From the NCBI RefSeq assembly GCF_025215055.1, contig NZ_JANAVR010000007.1, positions 1 to 36,580 on the forward strand: a stretch of DNA of 36,580 nucleotides, given 5' to 3'. A program made the position numbers and the translations under genes. The DNA is from Candidatus Cardinium sp. TP. GTDB taxonomy: Bacteria > Bacteroidota > Bacteroidia > Cytophagales > Amoebophilaceae. Numbering within the stretch: the first letter of the stretch is position 1; every line of letters begins with the position of its first letter. The notes beneath the pieces were generated by a model. That model did no database searches. It had not been told where the DNA came from and worked only from the letters and a program-made list of their open reading frames with translations. This document shows, piece after piece, positions 26,474 through 32,682 of this stretch.

Positions 26474-28657
26474 TTATTGTTGTTCACAGACCTGTAGTGC
26501 CTGTGCCGCTGCATTAGCTAATGCCTCTACGATTTTAGTATTCAAATATTTCTTTGCCAGTTCAATATCTATGGTAAGAGTTTCTTGGGCCATATATTTT
26601 AACTCATCTAGATGGGTATAGCTTTTAGCATGCCGCAGGTCATAAAGTCGTTCAGCTAATTTAATACAAAGTACAAAAAGCTGTTCTCGATTGATGACTT
26701 GCTTAAGGGCATTACCGATATAAAGTCCACATGGCTCCATGCCTTGGCGGTCATTGACTGCTAAAACACTCTCTATAAAAGAATAAATATTCAAATCGTA
26801 GTTGGCCTTAATATAAGAAAGTGGTAAATCTGCATAATGTATTAAGTCATATAGCAAAGCAACATAAATGGGTTCTGGATAGAACCGTATCCATTCTGCA
26901 ACCAATTGGGCAATACCTATTGCACGGATATACAAGAATTGTCCGGATAAATGTCGCCTAAAGCCGTAACACCTTCTGGTTAATAATAATATTTCATCTA
27001 TTACTGCTTTACGTGCCTCAGATATTTCTAAAAGATGATTATAAGATTTCATGAATACCTCCATGGACTGATCAATTTCTTGTTGGGCGACACGAACATT
27101 TATAGGAAGTATCTTGGCGATCATTGCATCTCGAACCGTGGCTACGTTACAAGGCAATACCATAAACATGGGTCTTTTTTGAGAGAAAGGAAAGCGTAGG
27201 TAACCATAGTGGGCGCGAATGGCACGTTCTATGATACGTTTTTCAATATGAATACGCTCTATGTCTTTCTGGTTGTTGTGCCACTTGAGTTCCCTTCCTT
27301 CTGTAATATCCTCATAATGACCCTTAATTTGGGGCAATATGGTTAAAGGAGTATGCAGTCTGCTGATCACGATGGCAATAGCTGGAAAGGTCATTTCCGC
27401 ATAACTTTTGTCTTTTTGTCTATGCTTTTGTCTATACTTTAGGTAAGTACTATGTAGTTGAATTTTTACAAATTCACCTTTTGCTACAGTTGGGTTAGCG
27501 GTACGTAAGACGATAGGGACTAATGCTTGGAGTATATGATTGATATCACATGTAATTTTGTTAGATACCGTGCTGTCTTTTATTTCTACGATCAACTTTG
27601 GGACTGGTGCGGTCTTAGCTTCCAGTTCAGAGGTTAGCCTAGCTATCAACTCATCTATCGTGATTTCATGTGGTGTTAATAATAGGTGGTCTACAGACTT
27701 GGCACGTTGCTTTAAGAAGGTAGTAAAAGTGAAAAAATTATTGATAATGCTTTGGATATCTTGCTTATAGAGTGGTCTATTGTCTAAATAGGAAATAAGC
27801 TCAGTAACTTCCTGCATTGCTTTTTCCACAAAAGATCCTGGGTCTTTTGTAGTTTTACCAGCCATGTCTGGATGTAAGTTGGAATGAGGTGGTCTATGGT
27901 TCTTTTTTTCTGAGGTTACTTGGCCTTTTAAGTAGCGGTTATAAAGTGTGTAGGCAGTAATTTTACGTTTGTTGTAAACAATAATGCTGAAAACGATTAA
28001 ACCAAATCCTAATAAAGATAGTAAAGAGTCGTTTGATGCCAGCAGTTGATCTACCCCTATGTTATAAATTGCGTAAAAGATTACCAACAATGTGACAAAT
28101 ACTAGTTTGATACTGATATATAGAGGTAATACAAATAAAGTGGCAGATAGATGCCCTACAGATAAGGTGAGTGAAAATTGAGGGTCTTGCAGATGAAACC
28201 AATGCCAGAATATATTAACGGGTAGGCACAAGATGGTGCATATGAGCCACGAGCAACCAATTTTCCATGAGGGAATCCCTTTTTTAGGTGTAATGCCATA
28301 ACCTATCAACCAAATACCTATAAAAAATTGGAATATATACCAATAGATGGTAAGCCCTCCACTTATGTAGTCTAGGATGGTGGTAAGGATCACGTAGCAC
28401 CCTGTACAGCTAATAATTGCATCACTCGGCCTTAGCTTGGCGAATCGTTCTTGTAAAACAGCAGCTTGTAACGTTTTGTTTATGCGGCTTTTTTTGCGTG
28501 TAAGCGCTTGCTGAAGTGCGCTAACTTCATTAAAAAATTGCGTATGGTGTAGGCACTGTTCCTCCGATGCAGCCCTGTTGCGCGTAAGGTAGAAAACCAC
28601 TACTAGTACCAATAGCACAAAAGGTAATGCCATGAGGAAAAGTGTAGTGAGTGACAT
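26474..28657 (-). CDS. Membrane protein with degenerate histidine-kinase-like core and RelA/SpoT-type HD-like C-terminus (paralog 1)
   Basis: About 727 residues from the ATG at 28657; the longer frame needs a TTG start at 28690, and the paralog also starts MSx. Residues about 8-220 hold several transmembrane helices. A linker leads to a region resembling the end of a kinase dimerisation domain (TPHEITIDELIARL) and an N-box-like CDINHILQALVPIVL near 370. A G2/last-helix-like EKRIIERAIRAHYGYLRF (about 470-487) precedes MFMVLPCNV. The DxGxG and GxGLGL ATP motifs and a clear phospho-His are missing. Residues from about 577 match the RelA/SpoT HD pattern (GIAQLVAEW, ALLYDLIHYADLP, CIKLAERLYDLRH, AQETLTIDIELAKKYL), but HD reads YD and other metal ligands appear changed. 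Likely a non-catalytic sensor or scaffold. Confidence 0.6.
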   Translation of the reverse strand: MSLTTLFLMALPFVLLVLVVVFYLTRNRAASEEQCLHHTQFFNEVSALQQALTRKKSRINKTLQAAVLQERFAKLRPSDAIISCTGCYVILTTILDYISGGLTIYWYIFQFFIGIWLIGYGITPKKGIPSWKIGCSWLICTILCLPVNIFWHWFHLQDPQFSLTLSVGHLSATLFVLPLYISIKLVFVTLLVIFYAIYNIGVDQLLASNDSLLSLLGFGLIVFSIIVYNKRKITAYTLYNRYLKGQVTSEKKNHRPPHSNLHPDMAGKTTKDPGSFVEKAMQEVTELISYLDNRPLYKQDIQSIINNFFTFTTFLKQRAKSVDHLLLTPHEITIDELIARLTSELEAKTAPVPKLIVEIKDSTVSNKITCDINHILQALVPIVLRTANPTVAKGEFVKIQLHSTYLKYRQKHRQKDKSYAEMTFPAIAIVISRLHTPLTILPQIKGHYEDITEGRELKWHNNQKDIERIHIEKRIIERAIRAHYGYLRFPFSQKRPMFMVLPCNVATVRDAMIAKILPINVRVAQQEIDQSMEVFMKSYNHLLEISEARKAVIDEILLLTRRCYGFRRHLSGQFLYIRAIGIAQLVAEWIRFYPEPIYVALLYDLIHYADLPLSYIKANYDLNIYSFIESVLAVNDRQGMEPCGLYIGNALKQVINREQLFVLCIKLAERLYDLRHAKSYTHLDELKYMAQETLTIDIELAKKYLNTKIVEALANAAAQALQVCEQQ

Positions 28658-32682: not shown

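Follow-up and report, generated by a model that had tools for sequence, protein, structure and literature searches.

Here, we propose that two large proteins of a Candidatus Cardinium genome, which we call A and B, act as signalling receptors that are anchored in the membrane and have no catalytic activity. Both are members of a family confined to the Amoebophilaceae in which a transporter, a pseudo-kinase and a Rel/SpoT-type HD domain are joined, and of whose two classes one (class I) would hydrolyse its ligand and the other (class II, with A and B) would bind it. We put the probability of this reading as a whole at roughly one half. Its frame is directly observed: the family has a shared architecture and falls into two clades, with the catalytic residues of the HD domain kept in one and uniformly replaced in the other.

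Both genes lie in the window (the whole stretch of 36,580 nucleotides that was analysed), on a contig (G000:C31) belonging to a draft Candidatus Cardinium genome of 914,750 bases. Protein A (26474..28690, minus strand; 738 aa, TTG start) and protein B (30604..32682, plus strand; 692 aa) are 53-54% identical, and between them lie a tRNA-Gln gene and a gene for a ClpP-like (S14) protein of 446 aa with a probable signal peptide and a coiled coil (28913..30253, minus strand; PF00574, 2e-23). Elsewhere in the window there is a complete 16S rRNA gene (8358-9882), for which neither a 23S nor a 5S partner was matched in the window, pointing to unlinked rRNA genes, and a palmitoyl thioesterase/LCAT-like alpha-beta hydrolase that looks secreted (23705-24700).

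The folds of A and B could not be settled by single-sequence searches (Pfam, NCBIfam, PHROGs, and phmmer against the PDB), whose results were too weak, the Pfam HD_4 matches both being under the cut-off (2.8e-5 for A, 0.071 for B), so profiles and models were needed. The C-terminal part of B (residues 489-692; 32068..32679, plus strand) has the HD-domain fold of Rel/SpoT: an HD profile from 37 class II relatives matches B. subtilis Rel (1.2e-8) and RelSeq (4.7e-6), and in the AlphaFold model of B (pLDDT 74.5) this part aligns with SpoT at Z 18.1 over 188 residues (2.8 A). In A, the HD domain was placed at residues 564-715 (26546..27001, minus strand) by HMM alignment. The DHp/CA-like middle of B (residues ~250-478; 31351..32037, plus strand) has, in the model, the CA (Bergerat) fold of a sensor histidine kinase, with RetS (4e-6), HK853 and CckA as the top Foldseek matches (4e-6 to 1e-4), HK853 aligning at Z about 12 over 136 residues; the family profile of the kinase-like part also matches the sensor kinases ZraS and ThkA at 7-8e-6. 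By those profile matches and homology to the fold of B, the end of the DHp and the CA-like region of A lie approximately at 27125..27805 (minus strand). The N-terminal membrane helices of B (residues ~3-190; 30610..31173, plus strand) are drawn from the model and hydropathy, and the membrane part of A (approximately 27986..28642, minus strand; from alignment, hydropathy and the modelled helices of B) is the homologue of a six-helix linker that follows the transporter in long family members. For this six-helix part the fold search gave no useful match, only weak ones (adenylyl cyclase, TMEM87A).

Profiles and the comparison of the AlphaFold model with the PDB thus agree with an earlier note, made from the letters alone, which had read both proteins as membrane helices followed by a kinase-like middle and a RelA/SpoT-type HD domain, and had called these a pseudo-kinase without DxGxG and a pseudo-(p)ppGpp-hydrolase fold; both folds were found by structure comparison. 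Its further reading of an N-box and a G2-like helix in the middle did not survive alignment, in which the H-box His, N-box Asn, G1 DxGxG and G2 are all absent from A and B, the N-box position reading VPIVLRT and VPVILSI in the two proteins. The N-box Asn (VNA/INS) is kept in several relatives with an intact HD domain, and Pfam HATPase_c matches no family member scanned.

The earlier note knew of no described family with this domain order and took A and B as a pair. They are instead truncated forms of proteins of about 1200 aa, several of them encoded in the same genome, which read in order SLC5 transporter, six helices, pseudo-kinase and Rel-type HD domain; the SLC5 domain is absent from A and B by Pfam. 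The pair makes up two of at least eight complete or near-complete class II copies in the source genome (one with a stop), which also carries fragments and three class I genes, and class II copies number dozens across the genus Cardinium. The class I proteins begin with an SLC5/SSF domain (PF00474), as do four of these class II copies, each about 1200 aa long. A model of a class I member (pLDDT 78.6) aligns with SLC5 structures at Z 37.8 and with the SpoT HD domain at Z 22.8 and 32% identity. Together with a third copy (C4:11717), A and B make up a single clade without SLC5 (support 100) that has orthologs in five strains; A is one of five orthologs in five Cardinium strains, sister to the B group in the tree. 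A and B would descend from one copy that lost its SLC5 part before the strains diverged. The stop-broken class II copy (L013:5483-8219) lies beside a transposase/integrase-like gene, and other fragments are on contigs C12, C16 and C30.

Distribution scans covered the order (291 genomes), a sample of the phylum (395) and plasmid records. With the pseudo-kinase profile, the family is confined to the Amoebophilaceae among the 291 genomes, five others giving weak matches to part of the profile only, and no member was found elsewhere in the Bacteroidota sample. Class I and class II occur together in all eight Cardinium genomes, and class I is also found in four further genomes (G009, G011, G012, G027). 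The earlier note had set homologues with full catalytic motifs against its proposal: all Cardinium genomes that were examined, and sister genera as well, do have intact HD domains, but no intact kinase goes with them. HD copies reach 40 or more per Amoebophilaceae genome; contig G005:C1 has at least 44 HD_4 matches in a 1.2 Mb genome, many in tandem (about 181-209, 315-376 and 400-421 kb).

The plasmid search with the kinase-HD part gave no fusion outside Cardinium covering most of the query. A plasmid protein of Megaera (Rickettsiales; CP113868.1:15943-23745, L136) joins an SLC5 domain through a comparable membrane linker to a HisKA-HATPase_c kinase that is intact. It is 28% identical to class I over its first 612 residues and may show the ancestral architecture of the family; relatives of this Megaera polyxenophila protein on other Megaera plasmids are annotated as alkaline phosphatase, a label that does not seem to fit the region matched. 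As a separate observation, one class I ortholog of the source genome (G000:C21:8700-12500, L076) has a dS of 0.25 between G000 and G004, where A and B reach about 0.92, and two plasmids of Dermatophagoides farinae Cardinium (CP101109.1 and CP101108.1) carry a relative with 89% identity; for both reasons this gene was probably exchanged between strains recently. A NUDIX hydrolase gene adjoins a class I gene both in the source genome (L009:775) and on the D. farinae Cardinium plasmid p_A (L137:4058-4807). NUDIX enzymes can degrade ppGpp; two cases of adjacency may be chance.

The two classes are told apart by ten positions of the HD pocket, mapped by alignment and named as what we take to be the RelSeq sites R44, H53, H77, D78, E81, D82, D144, H147, N148 and T151. 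Class I reads RHHDEDDHNT, the same as free-living RSHs, and class II reads HRY[DGE]..EYD[H/Q] in about 40 sequences. The strings of A (HRYDHYEYDH) and B (HRYGRYEYDH; residues H533, R542, Y567, G568, R571, Y572, E633, Y636, D637 and H640) thus lack the Mn-binding and catalytic residue set, the metal ligands of the HD domain being gone save for one Asp in A. The earlier note had seen HD become YD or YG, and H77 is indeed Tyr in both proteins, followed by Asp in A and Gly in B; its point that both copies have degenerated alike extends to one pocket string shared by about 40 paralogs. Across class II the metal-site changes are H53R, H77Y and D144E, with D, G or E at D78, and the R44 position, which in Rel helps hold guanine, is His, a change that counts against binding of ppGpp. 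Six of the ten pocket positions are invariant in class II, against 7 of 141 other HD columns (37 sequences; Fisher 2e-5). Class II is a single clade (support 100), each class being one side of that branch, and all class II sequences come from the genus Cardinium as drawn by GTDB. Taken together, the residues and the tree make it fairly plausible that class II arose once, by rebuilding of the HD pocket, losing the metal site and becoming a binding-only domain. One Cardinium class I ortholog group reads RHHDQNDHNT and a G002 relative reads RHHDRNDHNT, so that Q-N or R-N replaces the catalytic E-D pair with the HD metal ligands kept (L077, L079, L081, L085 and L087, from five strains; L091). This separate group may have arrived independently, by another route, at a hydrolase domain that only binds.

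The HD domain of A and B is also under constraint. The dN/dS of A and B between strains is 0.11-0.32, ratios that are rough since dS is near saturation for most pairs, which leaves the contrast in dN unaffected: dN is 0.020-0.135 in the HD region against 0.090-0.279 in the rest and is lower in the HD region in every strain pair. The “dead” HD domain is therefore the best preserved part of A and B, and the earlier suggestion that selection maintains the pair holds, with dN/dS at about 0.3 or less and the HD domain slowest.

If A and B do not hydrolyse, which proteins of these symbionts do? A synthetase domain is present in all eight Cardinium genomes and several relatives. The full-length Cardinium RSH, of about 370-376 aa, keeps the synthetase motifs and ends soon after the synthetase domain, with TGS and ACT absent, and its HD domain has lost the ligands and is eroded past recognition by the family HMM. 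The HD domain of the RSH is degenerate also in G009, G011, G012, G027 and G028, least so in G027, where part of the metal site remains in the RSH (H53, H77 and D78; Glu at position 144) and some activity may persist. All of these genomes, Cardinium included, have HD_4 matches on long SLC5-type open reading frames, assigned to class I by their residues in every genome but G028. Conversely, the family is missing from G013, whose RSH is of the canonical kind (769 aa), and both are missing from G014 and G015. In G010 there is one HD domain with intact residues and no synthetase hit. G008, with a weak synthetase fragment and no HD hit, is an exception that leaves the complementarity of RSH and class I imperfect. 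Unopposed ppGpp synthesis is toxic, as is known for E. coli. Because the RSH hydrolase is degenerate, the gene complements match and unopposed synthesis is toxic, there is good reason to infer that the RSH of these symbionts keeps only (p)ppGpp synthesis and that class I members supply the hydrolysis; judged by their residues, the class I transceptors are likely the (p)ppGpp hydrolases of these symbionts.

In light of this, what might the two classes do? With hydrolysis moved to class I, a relay that derives from a kinase but no longer phosphorylates would couple (p)ppGpp breakdown to a nutrient transporter. Class II would most likely bind a phosphorylated nucleotide such as (p)ppGpp, and we speculate that the Arg replacing H53 at the metal site could hold phosphates. 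The bound state would then be signalled to the membrane helices or else to HD partners, the latter through heterodimers formed by the DHp-like helices. The wider picture would be a stringent response split in the Amoebophilaceae, with synthesis by the truncated RSH, hydrolysis by transceptors through a dead-kinase relay and, in Cardinium, a class II clade acting as membrane receptors that read the nucleotide and do not destroy it; we offer this only tentatively, as possible but open to real doubt.

A new chemistry, or packing within a dimer, could explain the invariant pocket of class II just as well. One option is that class II HD domains, those of A and B included, are partner subunits with no nucleotide of their own, which regulate hydrolysis or synthesis as heterodimers with class I or with the truncated RSH. 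The coexistence of both classes in every Cardinium genome would fit this, as would the DHp-like helices kept in both classes and an RSH without regulatory parts of its own, but the invariant residues of class II cluster at ligand-site positions, and we consider this option unlikely. Another is that the H-R-Y-E-Y-D-H pocket gives class II a new enzymatic activity, which would need no metal and would act on a nucleotide or some other substrate that carries phosphate. In its favour are the seven pocket residues that are new, six of which do not vary among 37 sequences, and the low dN of the HD domain, but conserved residues alone do not separate catalysis from binding; we know of no precedent for such an activity among HD-domain proteins and regard it as improbable.

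Two further explanations concern A and B as a pair rather than the pocket. That they form one exported-protease stress module with the ClpP-like protein between them, as the earlier note proposed, draws on the order A-ClpP-B in five strains (G000, G001, G003, G004 and G007, inverted in G007), a linkage that is conserved there and not obligatory. The ClpP-like gene occurs in 12 of the 16 Amoebophilaceae genomes searched (E below 1e-60), some without A and B. Its neighbours in G002 and G005 are unrelated, and in G006 it lies two genes from a class I gene. Its distribution rules out an obligate module, and since the ClpP-like gene is usually not beside A and B and the arrangement is limited to five Cardinium strains, the three-gene module is unsupported and, we think, very improbable. 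Least probable of all is that A and B, which lack SLC5, are remnants of transporters in decay, kept by inertia only: family copies are fragmented elsewhere in the genome and B is frame-broken in cBtQ1, but the dN/dS values across strains rule out decay of the pair, the HD domain changes slowest and synteny is conserved in five strains.

Parts of this family have been counted before under other names. Atkinson 2011 (PMC3153485), in the part available to us, files a hydrolase group, rickSpo[H], expanded in Amoebophilus, among HD-only small hydrolases, and the available text of Brown 2018 (PMC6232779) counts homologs under the label “spoT ... sodium glucose cotransporter”: 18 for Amoebophilus and, for three Cardinium strains, 7, 3 and 2. 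These are probably class I. Like the present family, these are expanded RSH-type HD proteins in the same symbionts. Sections of two transcriptome papers (PMC5698495, PMC8831229) describe “putative sodium-solute symporters” (12 in Cardinium, 19 in Amoebophilus) as nutrient transporters of unknown substrate, all 12 being expressed in cEper1 and two being among its most expressed genes; these are probably largely the same long proteins, whose C-terminal half is not discussed in those sections. A and B would not be among the symporters counted, because they have no transporter. By approximate interpolation of gene numbers (anchors rpoC/DcuAB, with G007 taken as cEper1), one of the two top-expressed “symporters”, CAHE_0352, may lie near a class II pair, and the other, CAHE_0796, near, not clearly at, a class II gene, placements too loose to build on. 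In the text returned by a term search of the literature on these families, covering few subscription journals, a pseudo-kinase, a second pocket class and a dead RSH hydrolase are not mentioned. Thus the HD expansion is partly known, and the pseudo-kinase, the two-class split and the rebuilt pocket appear undescribed.

The family is among the most multiplied in widespread symbionts of arthropods and amoebae, and the literature available to us treats its members as sodium symporters or spoT copies. If class I hydrolyses ppGpp under the control of its transporter, one protein links nutrient import to alarmone breakdown, and class II would offer a set of naturally occurring pseudoenzymes whose hydrolase pocket underwent a single rebuilding and has been retained since.

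Among known systems, the “HATPase-SpoT hydrolase” fusions of Orientia, of which some genomes have one to four fused genes, likewise join an HD domain to a histidine kinase ATPase piece, and no transporter is described for them in the relevant part of the source (PMC10732058). The SLC5/STAC histidine kinases (CbrA, CrbS, RpuS) likewise fuse a transporter to a kinase-derived cytoplasmic part; according to the portion available of a paper on them (PMC13022988), their output is phosphorylation by an intact kinase and their linker is a soluble four-helix STAC bundle. Here, by contrast, the linker is hydrophobic, with about six membrane helices, by which description we set it apart, and it leads to a dead kinase and a terminal HD domain of the Rel type. 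With the RSH enzymes (Rel, SpoT) and small alarmone hydrolases the HD fold is common, class I sharing 32-35% identity and all catalytic residues with them, whereas A and B have neither metal ligands nor a synthetase domain and are anchored in the membrane.
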